A stretch of 64,000 nucleotides of DNA from Methanococcus voltae (GTDB lineage: Archaea; AGJL01; Methanococci; Methanococcales; Methanococcaceae): positions 62,001 through 126,000 of the forward strand of contig NZ_JANUCR010000002.1 of the NCBI RefSeq assembly GCF_024807655.1. The letters run 5' to 3'. Numbering within the stretch: the stretch's first letter is position 1; the number at the start of each line of letters is the position of its first letter. The position numbers were made by a program, and so were the translations under genes. This document shows positions 2-13,044 of the stretch, in pieces. Under the pieces are notes generated by a model, which had not been told where the DNA came from, ran no database searches, and saw only the letters and a program-made list of their open reading frames with translations.

Positions 2-235
2 GTAAAACAAGTAGTTGAAAATGTACCTGGTAAAGCAATAATGGGTAATGTAAGCACTTTTACTTTAGAAAATGGCACCCCTCAGTCCATAGAACGAATG
101 AGTAGTGCGTGCATAAAATTTGGCGTAGATATATTGTCTCCAGCTTGTGGTATTGGAGTTAGGACGAAATTGGAAAATATCCAAGCAATGGTAAATACTG
201 CAAAAAATTTCGATAATTCAAAAATAAATAATTAA
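2..235 (+). CDS. MtaA/MtbA-type methylcobamide:CoM methyltransferase, 3' end only
   Basis: The open frame runs in from the left edge, so only about 77 C-terminal residues are seen. They carry the end of a UroD-fold methyltransferase: a G-N-V strand, then the I-L-S-P-A-C-G-I-G loop and an R-T-x-L-E-N-I-x-A-M helix. In MtaA/MtbA that loop cysteine is the third zinc ligand that binds the thiol substrate. Family members move methyl groups between a corrinoid protein and coenzyme M. The gene lies 61 bp upstream of a corrinoid-activator gene in the same direction, which fits a methyl-transfer operon. A corrinoid protein, if present, would lie to the left. The methyl donor cannot be told from this fragment. 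Confidence 0.72.
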   Translation, partial: VKQVVENVPGKAIMGNVSTFTLENGTPQSIERMSSACIKFGVDILSPACGIGVRTKLENIQAMVNTAKNFDNSKINN

Positions 236-296
236 ATATTAACTTATGGTATATTTAATAATTTTTTTATATGATAACCTTATTTAGAGGCTTAAC

Positions 297-2366
297 ATGG
301 CAATAATTACAATAATTAATCCCAATATAAAAAATAATACTTTAAACTGTAGTTTTGGAGATTTACTTTTAAATATCTTACAAAAAAATGATTTAAAGAT
401 TGAAAGTCCTTGTGGTGGTGCAGGAACTTGTGGGAAATGCAAAGTTAAAGTTTTAAATCAAAATGAGAAAAATATTTCAAAACCAACCGTTGAAGAGTTA
501 AATTATCTTTCAAAAGACGAATTAAATGCAGGAATTCGTTTAAGCTGTTTAACTACCGTATATGGCGATTTAACTATCGATTTACTCAAAGATGCAAATA
601 TTTCAAACAATGAAGAAAGTAGTTCTCATAAAATACTGGCTGAAGGTTATATTCCAAATTTCGACTATAATCCTAATATAATAAAAATATCTTGCCCTTT
701 ATCCAAAAATACCTTAAAATTAATGGATATAGATTATTTAAAGAATAAAAATATCAAAACTTTTGAAAATGTTCTGTTAAATTTGATTAAAGAGTATTTA
801 ATTGATAATTCAAGCAACATAAAAAAACTAAACAAAACAAACAAAACAAACAAAAAAATATTAAATAATGATATTAATAATTTAAATTTTACTGTTAATT
901 TAAATGATTTGCAATTAATGGCATCAATACAAAAATTATCAGAAATATTGTCTAATAATTTATTCGATGACCAAAAAATATACGTTGATGCAATTTTTTC
1001 AGAAAATGAATTATTGGGTATAGAAATTAGGGGAAATAACTCAAATACCTCAAATACTTCAAATAATTCAAATAATCTAACTAATACCTTTGAAAACTCA
1101 AAATATTATGGTATAGCCATAGACATTGGAACAACAACCTTAGTGGCTTCATTAATTGATATAACTACTGGAAATGAATTATGTTCTGAAAGTAGGATTA
1201 ATCCTCAAAAACAATATGGTTTAGACGTTCTTTCAAGAATTGATTTTGCTAAAAAGAATGATAATGGATTAAAATTATTACATAACAGTATAATAGACTG
1301 TATAAATGAAATGATAGCTGAGTTATCTAAAAAACAAGGTATATCTAACGAATTAATTTATGAAATTGCTATATCTGCAAATACTACTATGTTACACTTT
1401 TTACTTAACATAGATGCTAAAACAATAGGTAAATCTCCTTATTTGCCAATATTTTTAAATTCTAAGTATTTAAAATCAAGTGATTTGAATATTAATATTT
1501 CAAAATTTGGTAGAGTTTATTGTTTACCTGGAGTTTCAGGATATATTGGTTCTGATATCGTAGCAGGCGTAGAAGTTTCTAATTTAGGTAATACTGATAA
1601 ATTAGTGCTTTTTATAGATATTGGCACTAATGGAGAAATAGTTTTATCTAACAAAGGTAAATTATCCGCTTGTTCGTGTGCAGCAGGTCCTGCACTTGAA
1701 GGTATGAATATAAGCTGCGGTATGCGAGCAGCGAATGGTGCAATCGAAGGTTTCAAAATAAAAGAAGATAATTCAACACCGGAAATAAACGTAATTGGAA
1801 ATTCTGAACCATTGGGGATTTGTGGTAGCGGAATATTGGATATAATTTCAGAAATCAATAAAGCTGGTTTAATAAATAAAACGGGACGTATAAAATCACC
1901 TAATATGGTAAATGAACTATATAAAGATATGATACTAGAAAAAGATGGTAAAAGGGCAATATTAATTTATAATTCAAAAAATAAAGATTCTAAAGAAATT
2001 TATATTTCTCAGAATGACATTAGACAAGTGCAACTGGCTAAAGCAGCGATAGTTTCAGGTTTTGAGGCACTATTGGCTGAATTAAGTGTTTCAATGCAAG
2101 ATTTGGATGAAGTAATAATTGCAGGTCAATTTGGAAAACACCTCAGTGAAGAGAGTCTCGCAGGTAGTGGGATTATTCCAAAGGAATTGAAAAATAAGGT
2201 TCGTTATATCGGTAATTCTTCAAAAATAGGTGCTTTAATGTGTTTATTGTCTAAAGAATCTCGCAAAAATATGGAAAATGTTGCCAATAAAATAGAATAT
2301 TGTGAATTATCTACAAAAGAAGGTTATGAAGATTTATTCATTAAAGCATTAAATTTTAACAAGTAA
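297..2366 (+). CDS. RACo-type ATP-dependent activator of corrinoid proteins (2Fe-2S + ASKHA/DUF4445)
   Basis: A 689-residue protein. Residues 1-95 form a plant-type [2Fe-2S] domain with C39-x5-C45-x2-C48 and C84. A lysine- and asparagine-rich linker region follows. From about residue 270 to the end there is an ASKHA ATPase-like domain (start I-D-I-G-T-T-T, late A-G-Q-F-G) typical of DUF4445. This architecture is that of RACo, which uses ATP to drive reduction of inactive Co(II) corrinoid protein to Co(I). It differs from Methanosarcina RamA, which lacks the N-terminal [2Fe-2S] domain and carries C-terminal [4Fe-4S] clusters; none are seen here. GAGG at 287-290 supports the start. The neighbouring methyltransferase piece suggests it serves that system. 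Confidence 0.8.
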   Translation: MAIITIINPNIKNNTLNCSFGDLLLNILQKNDLKIESPCGGAGTCGKCKVKVLNQNEKNISKPTVEELNYLSKDELNAGIRLSCLTTVYGDLTIDLLKDANISNNEESSSHKILAEGYIPNFDYNPNIIKISCPLSKNTLKLMDIDYLKNKNIKTFENVLLNLIKEYLIDNSSNIKKLNKTNKTNKKILNNDINNLNFTVNLNDLQLMASIQKLSEILSNNLFDDQKIYVDAIFSENELLGIEIRGNNSNTSNTSNNSNNLTNTFENSKYYGIAIDIGTTTLVASLIDITTGNELCSESRINPQKQYGLDVLSRIDFAKKNDNGLKLLHNSIIDCINEMIAELSKKQGISNELIYEIAISANTTMLHFLLNIDAKTIGKSPYLPIFLNSKYLKSSDLNINISKFGRVYCLPGVSGYIGSDIVAGVEVSNLGNTDKLVLFIDIGTNGEIVLSNKGKLSACSCAAGPALEGMNISCGMRAANGAIEGFKIKEDNSTPEINVIGNSEPLGICGSGILDIISEINKAGLINKTGRIKSPNMVNELYKDMILEKDGKRAILIYNSKNKDSKEIYISQNDIRQVQLAKAAIVSGFEALLAELSVSMQDLDEVIIAGQFGKHLSEESLAGSGIIPKELKNKVRYIGNSSKIGALMCLLSKESRKNMENVANKIEYCELSTKEGYEDLFIKALNFNK

Positions 2367-2392
2367 TTTTAACAAGTAATTTTAACAAATAA
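2353..2392 (+). repeat. 13-bp tandem repeat across the activator stop codon
   Basis: The unit TTTTAACAAGTAA occurs about three times in a row, the last copy diverged. The first copies encode the final residues and the stop codon; the rest is non-coding. It looks like slippage in AT-rich DNA. Confidence 0.7.
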
Positions 2393-2403
2393 TATTAAAA
2401 TAT

Positions 2404-2436
2404 CGATAATATCGCTTGCGGGTACATATATATGTA
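2404..2436. promoter_or_regulatory. Two palindromes in the cobW-like promoter region
   Basis: A perfect 11-bp dyad (CGATA-A-TATCG, 2404-2414) is followed by a 14-bp palindrome TACATATATATGTA (2423-2436). The second includes a TATA-like stretch, 37 bp before the start codon of the GTPase gene. A repressor site overlapping the promoter is possible; AT palindromes also arise by chance. Confidence 0.35.
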
Positions 2437-2472
2437 TTTATATTAATTTAATACTATAACAGAGGGATAAAA

Positions 2473-3420
2473 ATGAATAAAATAAAAATAGACGTTATTT
2501 CTGGATATTTAGGTTCTGGTAAAACTACATTCATACAAAAATTGATTAAATCTACTGAAAATGAGCGAATTGTAATTATTGAAAATGAATTTGGGGATAT
2601 AGGAATTGATGGAGATATATTAAGAGATAAAGGTTTAGATGTAGTAGAACTTGAAAAAGGATGTATTTGTTGTACTTTGAAATTAAACTTTTTAAAATCG
2701 CTTAATAATATTATCGAATACATGAAACCTACAAGAATCATCGTAGAACCTACAGGAATGGGTCTTTTAAGTCAAATAATAGGTATAGTCCTTGATGAAA
2801 ATAACGAAGATATTAAAAATAATTGCAAGTTGAATTCTGCAATTACTATAATCGACGGTGAAAATTACCTGGAACAAGTGGAATTGTTTGGAGATTTCTT
2901 CAATGACCAAATAAAAAATGCCAACAAGTTAATTATTAGTAAATCTCAATATATATCTCAAGAAGACTTAGATGATATTGTAGGGTCTTTAAGAGAGACA
3001 AATAACAATGCAGTAATCATTTCTGAAAATTGGGATTCCATTGATTTAGATAAATTTTTGAAAATCATCGACGAAAGTAATGAAAAAATTTCCCGTGAGT
3101 TGTATGTGGGGGATGTTCATAAAGCGATGCAAGGAGTTTCAAGCGTTTTGGTTAAATTTAATAATCCATTAAATATGGAATCTTTTAAAAACGCCGTAAA
3201 TGAATTAAAAACCAATAAATATGGTCTAATTATGAGGGGAAAAGGATTTATTAATTATTTAGATGAAAAAAATCCTGAAATTCAACGTTATGCCGAATTT
3301 AATTATGTGGGAAGTAACTATGAATTTGAAAATTTAAATACCAAGAAATCTTCTGAAATTTGCATAATTGGCAAAGAATTGGATGAAAAAGAAATATTGA
3401 ACTTATTTAATTTTAATTAA
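2473..3420 (+). CDS. CobW/P47K-family GTPase, putative metal chaperone
   Basis: A 315-residue COG0523-type protein. The Walker A motif G-Y-L-G-S-G-K-T-T is near the N-terminus. The family metal-binding motif C-I-C-C (within G-C-I-C-C-T-L-K) follows at about residue 57, then E-P-T-G and a CobW C-terminal domain ending in an E-N-L-N strand region. Such GTPases deliver zinc, cobalt or other metals to target proteins. Placed between a corrinoid activator and zinc-dependent UroD-fold methyltransferases, it may load zinc into the methyltransferase or cobalt into the corrinoid system; this is inference. GAGGG lies 7-11 bases upstream of the ATG. Two palindromes precede it. Confidence 0.82.
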   Translation: MNKIKIDVISGYLGSGKTTFIQKLIKSTENERIVIIENEFGDIGIDGDILRDKGLDVVELEKGCICCTLKLNFLKSLNNIIEYMKPTRIIVEPTGMGLLSQIIGIVLDENNEDIKNNCKLNSAITIIDGENYLEQVELFGDFFNDQIKNANKLIISKSQYISQEDLDDIVGSLRETNNNAVIISENWDSIDLDKFLKIIDESNEKISRELYVGDVHKAMQGVSSVLVKFNNPLNMESFKNAVNELKTNKYGLIMRGKGFINYLDEKNPEIQRYAEFNYVGSNYEFENLNTKKSSEICIIGKELDEKEILNLFNFN

Positions 3421-3466
3421 TCGTTAAATAATTGATTAAAACTAATATCATACGTATTATTCATAG

Positions 3467-3492
3467 ATTTACTATATTTTTATTTTTTTTAG
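3467..3492 (+). terminator. Probable T-tract terminator after the CobW-family gene
   Basis: A T-rich run containing five- and eight-base T stretches lies about 50 bp downstream of the stop codon. Archaeal RNA polymerase often stops at such tracts, so the MFS gene is probably a separate transcript. Confidence 0.4.
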
Positions 3493-3557
3493 TTATTATA
3501 AAATTTAATACCCATATTATATATATTAGTTAGATATATTACTTTATGGGAGAATTA

Positions 3558-3614
3558 ATGATAACAGGTATTATACTAAAAAAATTGATAAAAATGATTT
3601 TAATTCAATTTTGA
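3558..3614 (+). CDS. Possible 18-residue leader peptide before the MFS gene
   Basis: An ATG frame of 18 codons (MITGIILKKLIKMILIQF) has its own GGGAG site at 3548-3552, five bases before the ATG. Its TGA stop (3612-3614) overlaps the GAGGT ribosome binding site (3613-3617) of the transporter gene. That layout would couple translation of the two. The peptide is hydrophobic and basic and matches no family I know. The frame is short in AT-rich DNA and could be chance. Confidence 0.3.
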   Translation: MITGIILKKLIKMILIQF

Positions 3615-3623
3615 GGTATTAAT

Positions 3624-4955
3624 ATGTTATCGAAAGAAAATATATCTAAAATGATGAAATACAGATGGGTAATGTTTGCAGTTCTTGCAATAGTTTATTT
3701 CTTTGTATATTTCCACAGAACGTCTCTTGCAGTTATGGCAGGAGATTTAATGAGTACTTTCGGCGTAGGTGCTGGACAAATTGCGTTATTAGGTTCAGTT
3801 TATTTCTACGCTTATGCTTTAATGCAAATACCTTCAGGTGTTTTAGCCGATAAATACGGGCCTAAAAAAGTTGTTTCAATATTTACGTTAGTTGCAGCAT
3901 TAGGTGCTTTAATCACTGGTATAGCTACCGATTTTAATATGGTAATTTTAGGTAGGTTATTAATTGGTATTGGTGTAGCTGCGGTATATATTCCAATTAT
4001 GAAGGTACTTGCAACCTGGTTCAGAAAAAACGAATTTGCCACACAAAGTGGTTTAATGTTGGCAGTAGGTAATATCGGTGCTTTATCAGCAGCGGCACCT
4101 TTGGCAATGTTAAACACATCATTAGGTTGGCAAACTGTATTTTTAGGATTAGGTGTTTTTTCAGTACTTTTAGCAGTATTGTCATACATATTTATTAAAG
4201 ATAAGCCATCAGATAAGGGATTCCCTACAATTGCAGAAGTTGAAGCTTTGGAAAGTGGTAAAGAAGTTTCAAAAATCGCTGTAGAATCTCAAAAAGCTGA
4301 AACTCCTAAAGCTGAAGATACTATCGGTATCAAAGATGCTATGAAAATGGTTATTAAAGAAAAATCATTTTGGGCATTAGGTATTTGGTTCTTCTTTTTC
4401 TATGGGTCTTTAATGGCATATCAAGGTTTATGGGCAGGTCCTTACTTCCAAGATGTATTAGGTTGGGATAAATTAAATTATGCAGGACTTTTAATGTTTA
4501 TAGGCTTTGGTCTTATCTTAGGATGTCCTGTTGCAGGATATTTGGCAGATAAAGTTTTAAAATCAAGAAAAAAGACATTAATAATTGGTACGGTACTTTA
4601 TACAATATTATGGTTCGCAATATGGGCCTTAACAGGTGTTGATAATCCATTGATTTACCAAGTATTATACTTCTTATTTGGTTTCTTCGGTGGTTTCTTC
4701 GTTGTATCATATGGTCAGGTAAAATCATTGTTCCCTATATCCATTGCAGGTACTTCCACAGCTATATTAAACTTCTTCCCATTCGTAGGTGGTGCAGTGC
4801 TCCAACAGGTTTGTGGTGCAATAATTGCAAGCTATGGTATAACGGCAGCAGGTGGATTTACAATTGCAGGGTATCAAACAGCGTGGTTAACATTAGCAAT
4901 TGGTATGGTAATAGCTACTATATCCGTTTATTTCTCAAAAGAGAAAGGATTATAA
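3624..4955 (+). CDS. Major facilitator superfamily transporter
   Basis: A 443-residue integral membrane protein with about 12 hydrophobic segments in two halves. They are joined by a charged loop rich in Lys, Glu and Ala (about residues 195-240). The MFS signature appears as G-V-L-A-D-K-Y-G-P-K-K between helices 2 and 3, and its echo G-Y-L-A-D-K-V-L in the second half. GAGGT lies seven bases before the ATG. The substrate cannot be read from the sequence. Its place between the CobW/activator genes and a UroD-family protein makes a methylated compound or organic anion worth testing. I see no sign that it is broken. Confidence 0.85.
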   Translation: MLSKENISKMMKYRWVMFAVLAIVYFFVYFHRTSLAVMAGDLMSTFGVGAGQIALLGSVYFYAYALMQIPSGVLADKYGPKKVVSIFTLVAALGALITGIATDFNMVILGRLLIGIGVAAVYIPIMKVLATWFRKNEFATQSGLMLAVGNIGALSAAAPLAMLNTSLGWQTVFLGLGVFSVLLAVLSYIFIKDKPSDKGFPTIAEVEALESGKEVSKIAVESQKAETPKAEDTIGIKDAMKMVIKEKSFWALGIWFFFFYGSLMAYQGLWAGPYFQDVLGWDKLNYAGLLMFIGFGLILGCPVAGYLADKVLKSRKKTLIIGTVLYTILWFAIWALTGVDNPLIYQVLYFLFGFFGGFFVVSYGQVKSLFPISIAGTSTAILNFFPFVGGAVLQQVCGAIIASYGITAAGGFTIAGYQTAWLTLAIGMVIATISVYFSKEKGL

Positions 4956-4977
4956 TTATTTCGTGAATAGTTGATTA

Positions 4978-5024
4978 TTACTAATAATTATTTAATTATT
5001 ATTTAATTATTATTTAATTATTGG
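4978..5024. repeat. AATTATTT tandem repeats
   Basis: About four imperfect copies of an 11-bp ATTTAATTATT unit follow the MFS gene. They are simple AT repeats with no apparent coding function. Confidence 0.6.
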
Positions 5025-5153
5025 TATACTACAATAAGATTATAGCAACCCCAAATATATTACTAAATCAATTATTCTATAAAATTTTTATTTTATATTA
5101 TCTTATTTTTTACTACTTATTTTTTTTATTTTTAAGTTATAGAATTTATTAAT

Positions 5154-5175
5154 TTAAAGGAGTACTAACCTTTAA
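5154..5175 (+). promoter_or_regulatory. Hairpin in the leader of the UroD-family gene
   Basis: A perfect seven-base stem, TTAAAGG (5154-5160) with CCTTTAA (5169-5175), encloses an eight-base loop. It ends about 20 bases before the chosen start codon. It could act in RNA or as an operator. Confidence 0.4.
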
Positions 5176-5194
5176 TTTGTCGATTGGTGAAATT

Positions 5195-6124
5195 ATGGAT
5201 ATGGATGTTAAAAGTGATAAAAAAACTGATTTTAAATGTATTAGTGATAATTTCGAAACAATACCTGATTTAATCGCTAAAAATTTTGAATTCCCCAAAG
5301 CCCATACGAATCTTGAAGATATGATTAACTTATCGAAAGCGATGAAAGATTCTAAAAAAGATATTTTTTGTAGAGTTCCATTTTGTAATACTGTTGAAGC
5401 TGAAGCATTTGGTGCTATTATTAAATTAGGTGATAATAAGTATGGCCCCCGAGTTGAAAAGTATATAATAAATTCAAATGAAGAATTGGCTAATTTTGAG
5501 ACTTTGGTGGATTTGACTATGCGAAAAGGTAGGATAACTAACGTTTTGTCTGCAGTAAATAACTTATCTGCTTCCGGAGAGTATGTTATTTTAAATATTT
5601 GTGGTCCTTTTACGGTTATTTCAGCTTTAATGGACCCTAAAATATTTTATAAGGAAATTAGAAAAAATCCGGAAAATGCAAAAAAATTAATAGATTATAT
5701 CGAGCAAGGTATTATAAATTATATGATTGAAGGCGTTAAAAATGGTGCTAAAATTATATCGTACTCTGATTCCGTAGGTACTTTGGACATAGTAGGACCA
5801 AGAATTTTTAAAAATTATAGTGGAATATCCAATAAAAGAATAATTGAGCAATATAAATTAAAATTAGCGGAATTATCTGATTTTAACGAATATAATGTGA
5901 TATTACACGTTTGCGGTAAATTATCTTCTTCTTTCGAAAATACGGAAATTTATACTCACTATCCTATTACTATGGATAGCAATGGTAAAAATTATGGGGA
6001 AATTCTATTGGATATCTTAAATACTTGCAATAATATTGGTTCCGACGTTAATGTATTAGGTAATGCTTGTATTAAAAAAACAAGTTCTAAATCAAAAAAT
6101 AGTACAATTTATAAATTAAAATAG
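5195..6124 (+). CDS. UroD-family (MtaA/MtbA-like) methyltransferase homologue, shortened C-terminus
   Basis: A 309-residue protein with UroD/MtaA features: E-A-E-A-F-G-A early, N-I-C-G-P-F-T central, Y-S-D-S-V-G-T, and the zinc-site motif L-H-V-C-G at about residue 241. It stops shortly after V-L-G-N-A-C. The roughly 50 residues holding the third zinc ligand (P-A-C-G loop) in MtaA/MtbA, present in the fragment at the left edge of this window, are absent. The other frames downstream do not restore them, so this is a true short form rather than a recent frameshift. GGTGA at 5186-5190 sets the start at 5195. A methyltransferase, a demethylase component or a non-catalytic partner are all possible. 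Confidence 0.7.
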   Translation: MDMDVKSDKKTDFKCISDNFETIPDLIAKNFEFPKAHTNLEDMINLSKAMKDSKKDIFCRVPFCNTVEAEAFGAIIKLGDNKYGPRVEKYIINSNEELANFETLVDLTMRKGRITNVLSAVNNLSASGEYVILNICGPFTVISALMDPKIFYKEIRKNPENAKKLIDYIEQGIINYMIEGVKNGAKIISYSDSVGTLDIVGPRIFKNYSGISNKRIIEQYKLKLAELSDFNEYNVILHVCGKLSSSFENTEIYTHYPITMDSNGKNYGEILLDILNTCNNIGSDVNVLGNACIKKTSSKSKNSTIYKLK

Positions 6125-6240: not shown

Positions 6241-7077
6241 TTATTCATAACATTTTAATGATATTCGATTAGTGTTGCCATAGGGTTTTCTGACTACTAT
6301 TCCATATAATTCCAACTTTCTAATGGTTCTCGAAACCTTTACTTTCGAGAGTCCAGTTTCTAAAACTATTTTATTTTGCAATAATTCTTTATTTTCACTT
6401 TCGTATAATAAATTATATATTTTTAATTCATCTTCTTTTAAATTCTTTAATTTTTCATTACTAATTCTAAATCTTTTTTCTTCTTTTTTTTCTTTTTTCT
6501 CTTCATTAATTTCTTTCGATTTAACTTCTTCATTTTTGAGAATATCTATTTTTTGATTTTCAACATTATTATCGTAATTCATATATTTTTTATTTGAAAT
6601 GTTTTCATCAACAGAATTATTTAATATGATATGTTCGCTATTTTTTTCAATTTCGTTAATTTCTTCAACTTTAATGTCTTCTTCAAATTCGATATATGAC
6701 GGTTCTTCTTCAAAATAGTCTAAATCTACAGTTTTATTTCCCATTTCAGAAATGTAATCGTTTTGGCTGTTTATATTATGAATTTTTTCGTTAATTTCTT
6801 CATTTTTGGCATATTTGTTGTCTAAACTTTTTATTAATTCATATTTAATATCTCCAATACAGGTAAGTTTTGAAAAGCAGTTTGTAGCAATTACTGAAAG
6901 CGCTAACATCATTATTACTTCATTAAGTGGATACATTTGTGGTGTAGCAATTGCTACAGGGTCTCCATTACCTATGGCTACCGAAACAGAAGTAATCCCT
7001 TTTGAAAACAACAATATGGATATGGAGAATACCGAACCTGCAAGTATAACTACATATGCCAAATCTTTTTTGTTCAT
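6241..7077 (-). CDS. Membrane-anchored winged-helix transcription regulator
   Basis: A 278-residue protein with two N-terminal hydrophobic segments (about residues 6-25 and 51-68) and a short outward loop between them. A long, acidic, Glu/Lys/Asn-rich linker follows (about 80-200), then a C-terminal winged helix (about 203-278). The recognition-helix region reads T-G-L-S-K-V-K-V-S-R-T-I-R-K-L and is followed by a wing. This suits a one-component sensor that holds its DNA-binding domain at the membrane. The start has AGTGGT just upstream. It is the second gene of a two-gene operon, 15 bp behind an exported protein. The signal sensed is unknown. Related membrane winged-helix regulators exist in other archaea; this one I cannot name. 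Confidence 0.7.
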   Translation of the reverse strand: MNKKDLAYVVILAGSVFSISILLFSKGITSVSVAIGNGDPVAIATPQMYPLNEVIMMLALSVIATNCFSKLTCIGDIKYELIKSLDNKYAKNEEINEKIHNINSQNDYISEMGNKTVDLDYFEEEPSYIEFEEDIKVEEINEIEKNSEHIILNNSVDENISNKKYMNYDNNVENQKIDILKNEEVKSKEINEEKKEKKEEKRFRISNEKLKNLKEDELKIYNLLYESENKELLQNKIVLETGLSKVKVSRTIRKLELYGIVVRKPYGNTNRISLKCYE

Positions 7078-7092
7078 ATTACCACTTTATAC

Positions 7093-7695
7093 CTATTGTA
7101 CCTTTATAACTGTTAAATCTTCAGGGTGGTTGTTTATCATCTTTTTAAGAGTATTATTCAAACACGCTTCTTGTTGGGTTGTTAAATTGAGCTGTTTTAT
7201 TTCATCGTCCGATAATGAAATATGACCATATATTTCCAATATTTTTTCCAATTGTTGTCTTGTTAAATTTAAATTTTTTAAATCATAATATGAATACACT
7301 TTATAAATCATGGGTCTTGATGAATTTTGTGATTCTTTAATATTAGGTACTAAAACCCAATCTAATTCTTTATCATCCTTTTTAAGCATCATACTTATAT
7401 TTTCAAAAACTGATTTGTTATTAATATGAATATTACCATATGTATCATAATTCACACTGTTAGGATATTCTTCAGAAATGTTGTGTAGTGCATATTTTAA
7501 TTCTCCATCTAAAGAGTCTAATGGTATGGTTGACACATATAATTCGCCACTGGTAATTTTGTAAGGTGGAGCATTGTTTTTAAAATTTCCTTCAATGTCA
7601 TCGCCAAACACTGTCCACAATATGTTGGCGGATATCATTGCTCCACTAACAAATGCAAGGATGCATATTAAAATTACAAGAATTATTTTTTTCAT
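7093..7695 (-). CDS. Exported or membrane-anchored protein of unknown function
   Basis: A 200-residue protein with one N-terminal hydrophobic segment (residues 4-25) acting as signal or anchor. The rest is hydrophilic and probably outside the cell. It has seven N-x-S/T sequons, usable by the archaeal oligosaccharyl transferase. A repeated L-N-L-T-x-Q-Q stretch occurs at about residues 142-148 and 169-175. No family recognised. It is the first gene of the operon with the membrane winged-helix regulator, which makes it a candidate sensory partner. GGAGG lies eight bases before the ATG, with a TATA box and repeated motifs further upstream. Confidence 0.6.
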   Translation of the reverse strand: MKKIILVILICILAFVSGAMISANILWTVFGDDIEGNFKNNAPPYKITSGELYVSTIPLDSLDGELKYALHNISEEYPNSVNYDTYGNIHINNKSVFENISMMLKKDDKELDWVLVPNIKESQNSSRPMIYKVYSYYDLKNLNLTRQQLEKILEIYGHISLSDDEIKQLNLTTQQEACLNNTLKKMINNHPEDLTVIKVQ

Positions 7696-7730
7696 GCTAT
7701 TTACCTCCCAGCATATTTTAGGTGAAATAC

Positions 7731-7740
7731 ACTTTATAAA
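7731..7740 (-). promoter_or_regulatory. TATA box of the regulator operon
   Basis: On the minus strand the sequence reads TTTATAAAGT, 36-45 bases before the start codon at 7695. Transcription would begin about 25 bases downstream, close to the GGAGG site. The first repeat of the operator array ends seven bases upstream. Confidence 0.5.
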
Positions 7741-7746
7741 TTATGT

Positions 7747-7815
7747 TGAAACGAGTTTTGGGGAATTTTAAATCTTGAAACGAGTTTTTTAAATTATAAA
7801 ATAACTGAAACGAGT
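7747..7815. promoter_or_regulatory. Triple direct repeat TGAAACGAGT, phased operator array
   Basis: Three exact copies of TGAAACGAGT lie at 7747-7756, 7776-7785 and 7806-7815, start-to-start 29 and 30 bp, about three helical turns. They sit directly upstream of the TATA box of the operon encoding the membrane winged-helix regulator. That is where an archaeal activator would bind. A looser inverted match to the TGAAAC core lies at 8002-8007 in front of the divergent gene. Confidence 0.6.
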
Positions 7816-7906
7816 CATTATTTTTAATTTTTAAAAGTATTTAATAATTTATACATTATATACTTAACGATTTGAGTATATTTTATCCAATTTATGACGT
7901 TAATAT

Positions 7907-7962
7907 AAAAAAATATAAAAAAATATAAAAAAATATAAAAAATAATATAAAAAATAATTTGC
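7907..7962. repeat. AT-rich tandem repeat
   Basis: Several copies of a 10-bp A-rich unit (ATATAAAAAA) sit between the two divergent promoters. Confidence 0.7.
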
Positions 7963-7988
7963 AATAAAAAAGATACTTAAAAACAGTG

Positions 7989-7997
7989 TTTATAATA
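7989..7997 (+). promoter_or_regulatory. TATA box of the sequon-rich secreted protein gene
   Basis: TTTATAATA preceded by an A-rich stretch that could serve as BRE. Initiation would be expected near 8015-8022, giving a leader of only about 30 bases that begins at or inside the hairpin at 8017-8039. Confidence 0.45.
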
Positions 7998-8016
7998 TAG
8001 TGTTTCAACCAAGTGT

Positions 8017-8039
8017 TTTTCGGGAGTAAGTCCCGGAGG
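8017..8039 (+). promoter_or_regulatory. Leader hairpin that can hide the ribosome binding site
   Basis: CGGGA (8021-8025) pairs perfectly with TCCCG (8031-8035) around a five-base loop. T8017-T8020 can extend the stem by U-G, U-A, U-G and U-G pairs. The whole GGAGG (8035-8039) could then be paired. It is one of the most GC-rich spots in the surrounding non-coding DNA. It may control translation of the secreted protein. Confidence 0.5.
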
Positions 8040-8048
8040 CCAATACAT

Positions 8049-8597
8049 ATGAATAAATTTACAAAAACTTCAGTGTCCTTATTGGTCTTACTCATATGTA
8101 TGATGGGTGTTTTTGCAAGTGATTTAAATGAATCTACTCAAACTGCAGACTCAAATAACATATGTGTGGAAAGTTGTGAAAATATTACGAACTACTTTAA
8201 TCATTCGTATGAAGGTCATCATAGACCTATGTTAAGAAATATGAATGGCACTCACGAATTTGGAAATTTTATAGATTTCACAAATGATACTTTTGAGAAT
8301 GGTAGACCACCATTTCCGATAGAAGTTATAAACTGTTGGAATTGTTCAAATGAACCATTAATTGAACCATTAAATGAAAGTATTTTGTGTAGCTATTATA
8401 ATTATTCTCCAGAGCAGATGAATGAAAGTATTTTGAAATATATCGTAAATGGTCCATGTAATTTAACTTTTGAAAATGGTACGCCTGTCAGACCTGGCAA
8501 TGACGTTAAATTTAGGGGATTTAAATTCAATGAATCAGATGTAAATTGTACTATGTTTCGAAATAGACTACCTGCTTTGATTAATGAAAGTAGTTAA
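8049..8597 (+). CDS. Small secreted, cysteine-containing protein rich in N-glycosylation sequons
   Basis: A 182-residue protein starting at the ATG nine bases after GGAGG; an in-frame GTG upstream at 8013 lacks such a site. Residues 1-24 are a signal peptide (basic start, then a hydrophobic core ending V-F-A-S). The mature part has 14 N-x-S/T sequons, about one per 11 residues, and seven cysteines. There is no second membrane segment. Methanococci N-glycosylate surface proteins at such sequons, so a densely glycosylated, possibly disulfide-linked surface or secreted protein is likely. No family recognised. It is transcribed away from the membrane regulator operon and may be its target. Confidence 0.6.
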   Translation: MNKFTKTSVSLLVLLICMMGVFASDLNESTQTADSNNICVESCENITNYFNHSYEGHHRPMLRNMNGTHEFGNFIDFTNDTFENGRPPFPIEVINCWNCSNEPLIEPLNESILCSYYNYSPEQMNESILKYIVNGPCNLTFENGTPVRPGNDVKFRGFKFNESDVNCTMFRNRLPALINESS

Positions 8598-12768: not shown

Positions 12769-13044
12769 ATGGAGCTTGTGCAATATACGATGTATACTGG
12801 TTATATTTTATTAATAATCGGCACAATAGGAGCGGTACTTGGACCAATGTCAAAAGACCCCATAAAAAAACTTCTAAATGTAGAAGTTCCTTCTGTAGGT
12901 TTGAGTCTCATATTACTTGCATATAATCATACCTTAGCATTAATGACATTCTTAGCAGTTAATGCGGCAATTGGTCTTGTTTTAATCAGGGCAGTAATAA
13001 AAACAGTAGAAAATGCGGAGGACTATCATGAAAAAAATAAATGA
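12769..13044 (+). CDS. ehaE: Eha hydrogenase membrane subunit E
   Basis: A 91-residue, three-helix membrane protein with a conserved-looking loop [12 protein letters not shown] between helices 1 and 2, reminiscent of small antiporter (MnhC/NuoK-like) subunits. GTGAT precedes the ATG. Its 3' end overlaps the next gene by 17 bases, indicating coupled translation. Confidence 0.72.

Follow-up and report, generated by a model that had tools for sequence, protein, structure and literature searches.

Three exact copies of a 10-bp repeat at the promoter of a predicted membrane-tethered regulator operon in Methanococcus voltae

The operon, its promoter and the divergent gene

The window analysed here (the whole 64-kb stretch of Methanococcus voltae DNA) carries on its minus strand a two-gene operon (7695-6241) encoding two predicted membrane proteins. 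The first gene (7093-7695, minus strand) encodes a 200-aa protein with one N-terminal transmembrane (TM) helix, and the rest of the chain is probably outside the membrane; no family match was found for it. The second gene (6241-7077, minus strand) starts 15 bp after the first on the same strand and encodes a 278-aa protein with two TM helices, placed by hydropathy at residues 6-24 and 54-72; a variable linker leads from these to a C-terminal winged helix. The winged helix (residues 215-274) matches DUF7343 (Pfam PF24034) at 32.4 bits against a cut-off of 27.6, and its recognition region shows almost no variation among the three genomes compared (this genome and those of two relatives, G006 and G002). 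A TM region and a DNA-binding domain thus occur in one chain, which is how transmembrane transcription regulators are recognised, and the 278-aa protein is a candidate membrane-tethered regulator. Its operon partner, with a TM anchor and a predicted extracytoplasmic domain, has the make-up of a co-component protein and is a candidate sensor partner; the same pairing is found in both relatives. Predicted structures of both proteins fell short of the quality required for a fold search (the AlphaFold model of the 200-aa protein has a mean pLDDT of 47.8).

In the operon direction, the minus strand reads ACTCGTTTCA (a repeat copy described below), 6 bp, TTTATAAA (7740-7733), GGGAGGT, and the ATG of the 200-aa gene. 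GGGAGGT is a properly placed ribosome-binding site for this gene. Based on sequence and alignment, TTTATAAA (7733-7740, minus strand) is the putative proximal TATA box, with a conserved TATAAAG core, and the 6 bp at 7741-7746 (minus strand) provide the BRE space between it and the nearest repeat copy. Directly after the TATA box is the element AGTGTATTTCACC (7721-7733, minus strand), which resembles an element at the divergent promoter under a pattern defined post hoc. The proximal promoter and the repeats lie in an indel-free conserved block (7698-7886). The block also holds a second conserved TATA-like stretch (about 7853-7862). It lies some 120 bp further upstream than the proximal TATA box and is a possible alternative promoter in either direction.

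The product of the divergent gene (8049-8597, plus strand) is a short protein that carries a signal peptide and has a fast-evolving mature part, and the gene is a possible second target of the regulator. Its promoter (7989-8010, plus strand) consists of the TATA box TTTATAATATA followed by AGTGTTTCAACC, which contains GTTTCAA, the complement of TTGAAAC, right after the TATA box. The pattern AGTGTN(0-3)TTCAN(0-2)CC, defined after both sequences had been seen, has two matches in the window, each directly after the TATA box of one of the divergent promoters and in the same orientation relative to its own gene. Across the three genomes, no other match inspected for the related pattern stood at a recognisable promoter; the seven inspected were in coding sequence or resembled it, except for one just past a gene end. 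Given the post hoc definition of the pattern, the putative shared post-TATA element is a lead only. The leader of the divergent gene contains a short hairpin, CGGGAGTAAGTCCCGGAGG (8021-8039), which adjoins the ribosome-binding site and is conserved in both relatives; it was found nowhere else in seven genomes of the genus with up to two mismatches. The relatives keep the promoter, leader, and signal peptide of the divergent gene, and the mature protein is not recognisably related (121-123 aa, rich in His, Asn, and Cys). This suggests that the product is a fast-evolving or swapped secreted protein.

Adjoining the operon, the genes at 41-6124 encode the end of an MtaA-like protein, an iron-sulfur ASKHA-like activator, a CobW-like GTPase, an MFS transporter, and a uroporphyrinogen decarboxylase-family protein, names that come partly from reading the sequence. 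This cluster is suggestive of a corrinoid methyltransferase system. The downstream genes we take to be an Eha-type hydrogenase operon.

The repeat array and its conservation

Three exact copies of the 10-mer TGAAACGAGT are present on the plus strand at 7747-7756 (copy 1), 7776-7785 (copy 2), and 7806-7815 (copy 3). Start-to-start steps are 29 and 30 bp, and copy 3 is 59 bp from copy 1. These positions and steps reproduce those given in the earlier note, which also placed the array just upstream of the TATA box of an operon with a winged-helix protein; that placement is confirmed, with the BRE space lying between. The earlier note counted two C/G positions in the motif, and TGAAACGAGT has four. 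Its statement that all copies face the same side of the helix fails at 10.5 bp/turn, where steps of 29 and 30 bp correspond to 2.76 and 2.86 turns and the 59 bp between copies 1 and 3 are 5.62 turns. Copies 1 and 3 would roughly share a face only at 10.0 bp/turn.

The earlier note also considered a chance origin unlikely, and this judgement holds. No other 10-mer with at least two G/C positions occurs three times within 100 bp without overlap in the 64-kb window. The corresponding 80 kb of G006 contains no such triple 10-mer, because the middle copy differs there. Among 20,000 spacers simulated with the dinucleotide make-up of the real 353-bp spacer (first-order Markov), none had a thrice-repeated 10-mer with at least four G/C positions. 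A scan of the whole genome (1.86 Mb, 18 contigs) for the motif and its complement, as proposed in the earlier note, found no exact TGAAACGAGT beyond the three copies on either strand, so the motif is not scattered at random across the genome. The triple repeat is real and more than chance.

The 200-aa gene and its operon are present in three of 22 family genomes (this one, G006, and G002, all in the same genus) and absent from the other 19, and the paired motif formed by the outer copies at their spacing is limited to the same three. In both relatives the outer copies are exact and 59 bp apart in an alignment without indels, and the middle copy is TGAAACCACT, with CACT replacing GAGT. Conservation in relatives, which the earlier note had looked to, is thus borne out for the outer copies and their spacing and not for the middle copy.

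The block at 7698-7886 is identical to each relative at 167 of 189 positions (88%) without a gap. Identity is only 34-37 of 98 positions in the adjoining 7887-7984 and 55-57 of 64 in 7985-8048, which holds the promoter and leader of the divergent gene, and four-fold degenerate sites in three neighbouring genes are 52-56% identical. Compared with G006, the 200 bp upstream of the operon have identities of 0.88, 0.88, 0.90, and 0.84 per 50 nt. Among about 50 upstream regions in the window, the operon's is the most conserved except for that of the gene at 13013, which is mostly coding sequence of the preceding gene. Because block identity exceeds that of other upstream regions and of four-fold sites, the alignments give good support to the view that the operon spacer is under strong selection. 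The 200-aa protein is 67% identical to its G006 counterpart, the lowest value in that gene-by-gene comparison. Its first 28 codons (7612-7695) have 75-76 of 84 identical nucleotides, above the rest of the gene, and this part of the coding sequence may itself be under regulatory constraint.

Within the block, copies 1 and 3 are identical at all 20 positions, compared with 139 of 159 non-repeat positions, and the 20 bp around copy 2 are less conserved than any other such stretch near the array. The conservation pattern does not single out the repeats from the rest of the block.

Candidate binder and rival explanations

We interpret the repeats as regulator-binding sites at the promoter of the minus-strand operon, most likely bound by the operon's own winged-helix protein, and we give this reading a probability of roughly 0.55. 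We favour the operon's own protein because the motif is restricted to this promoter and the winged helix hardly varies among the three genomes. In the proposed mechanism, the TGAAACGAGT copies are predicted binding sites of a transcription regulator; copy 1 would occupy the typical position of an archaeal activator upstream of the TATA box, with the array continued further upstream by copies 2 and 3. The membrane-tethered winged-helix protein would bind these sites under the control of its membrane-anchored 200-aa partner, and it would adjust its own operon and perhaps also the divergent secreted-protein gene. Of this mechanism, the binding itself, which protein binds, a positive rather than negative effect on transcription, and the signal are what we infer here. 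Several observations count against a binding array: conservation does not set the repeats apart from the rest of the block, the 189-bp conserved block is longer than three sites need, the spacing is unphased at 10.5 bp/turn, and the middle copy is altered in relatives. A wider form of the motif, TTGAAACnAST, occurs 28 times in the genome, and a wider regulon was rejected because every match away from the locus belongs to a CRISPR array or to coding sequence. Other genomes of the genus also have triple TGAAAC matches, which were set aside on the strength of the most similar one (G005), found inside a coding gene.

Evidence from position and conservation would be identical if the array served a different, trans-acting cytoplasmic regulator of the sensor operon and the operon's own winged helix acted elsewhere, and cognate binding cannot be read from sequence. 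This is possible, but clearly less probable than binding by the operon's own protein. With no other intergenic copy in the genome, a global factor would serve one promoter, and motifs of the EarA, NrpR, MsvR, and Ptr2 types are absent from the block. Known operators are GGAA-N6-TTCC for NrpR, TTCG-type repeats for MsvR, and a GGAC...GTCC palindrome for Ptr2; none of these was found in 7698-7890, and neither strand of that interval has an EarA site (TACATA). Ptr2 belongs to a regulator family other than that of the DUF7343 protein. Action at the RNA level is unlikely. The TATA-like stretch at about 7853-7862 would then be the promoter of a longer transcript, with three ACUCGUUUCA elements in its leader that bind protein or RNA, and the conserved block does reach 7886 and include that stretch. 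However, a TATA box and a ribosome-binding site (GGGAGGT) lie between the repeats and the gene, and a structured RNA was rejected since Rfam gave no match and the leader folds no better than its shuffles (z = -0.04).

The 29-30 bp step is close to the unit of archaeal histone packaging (about 30 bp per dimer), and histones are present in Methanococcales. Packaging or simple coincidence, with no specific binder, is nevertheless slightly less likely again than RNA-level action, since histones have no need of an identical G/C-bearing 10-mer and the window has no other such array. Highly improbable is an origin as remnants or mimics (a CreA-like regulatory RNA) of a CRISPR repeat, whose 3' end in this genome is TTTGAAAC. 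The genome's array repeat GCTAGAAATAAGACTATAGTAGATTTGAAAC also contains TTGAAAC, but its best alignment to copy 1 scores 20, a value matched or exceeded by 409 of 5116 window stretches, and copies 2 and 3 score 16. The array step is about 67 bp, compared with 29-30 bp here. A CRISPR-derived repeat was rejected on this chance-level alignment and unfitting step. Two kinds of CRISPR arrays are present in the genome, with repeats GCTAGAAATAAGACTATAGTAGATTTGAAAC and GTTTCAATCCTTGTTTTAATGGATTATGCATTGTGAC (L045 on G000 contig C13 and L038 on contig C6).

Comparison with known regulators

Multiple sites upstream of the promoter elements are a feature of archaeal activators. At the fla (archaellum) promoter of Methanococcus maripaludis, EarA has several short sites immediately upstream of the BRE (PMC5512572; for Pyrococcus, PMC10665913), and at the rubredoxin 2 gene of Methanocaldococcus jannaschii the BRE is preceded by multiple sites for Ptr2, which activates by recruiting TBP (PMC5512572). 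Both EarA and Ptr2 are activators thought to help recruit TFB or TBP (PMC5512572, PMC10665913). The three copies here, the nearest 6 bp upstream of TTTATAAA, show the same layout. They share with the fla promoter tandem short sites directly upstream of an operon's BRE/TATA, and with the Ptr2 target multiple sites upstream of the BRE. However, EarA sites are 6-bp TACATA elements at archaellum genes, whereas the sites here are 10 bp long at 29-30 bp steps, lack TACATA, and precede a membrane-tethered regulator operon. The Ptr2 palindrome is absent here, and activation of this operon is a prediction.

ToxR/ToxS and VtrA/VtrC are bacterial co-component systems (PMC9214523). They resemble the present locus in consisting of a two-gene operon that pairs a membrane-anchored extracytoplasmic protein with a membrane-tethered transcription factor, and in the fast evolution of the partner. 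In the bacterial regulators the DNA-binding domain is N-terminal, there is one TM helix, and the partner gene lies downstream, whereas the archaeal protein has its DUF7343 winged helix at the C-terminus, two TM helices, and a partner gene upstream. A partner with a lipocalin-like fold that pairs with the regulator as a heterodimer is a further mark of such systems; the low-confidence AlphaFold model of the 200-aa protein gave no usable fold for comparison. No homology of the operon proteins to ToxR/ToxS or VtrA/VtrC was detected. By analogy, the two proteins are a candidate ToxR/ToxS-like pair in an archaeon, with a putative operator array of their own. A survey by domain content found archaeal transmembrane transcription regulators to be widespread, at about four per archaeal genome (PMC10269533); the 278-aa protein resembles them in carrying a TM region and a DNA-binding domain in one protein. 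Our literature search found no DNA site or operator and no sensor partner for the DUF7343 family, and no paper naming DUF7343.

Similar arrangements exist in other genomes. In G004 (L112, 2777-5207), a 242-aa anchored protein and a 219-aa winged-helix protein with two TM helices form a similar pair, divergent from a 155-aa secreted-protein gene that precedes ABC-transporter genes; TGAAACGAGT is absent from this cousin locus. In another genus of the family, the membrane-tethered DUF7343 proteins are longer, and a signal-peptide protein is encoded next to them.

A fuller interpretation, which we hold as doubtful, is an archaeal co-component signalling system with a membrane-anchored sensor and a winged-helix regulator with two TM helices. 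While held at the membrane, this regulator would bind both a three-site array dedicated to it and the similar GTTTCA elements that follow the two TATA boxes. The operon and the divergent gene for the secreted protein would then together form a single-locus regulon under its control. The locus is a compact candidate, with a defined putative operator and one likely target region, which would make it possible to test, in a Methanococcus-type organism, how a protein held at the membrane gets to its promoter.
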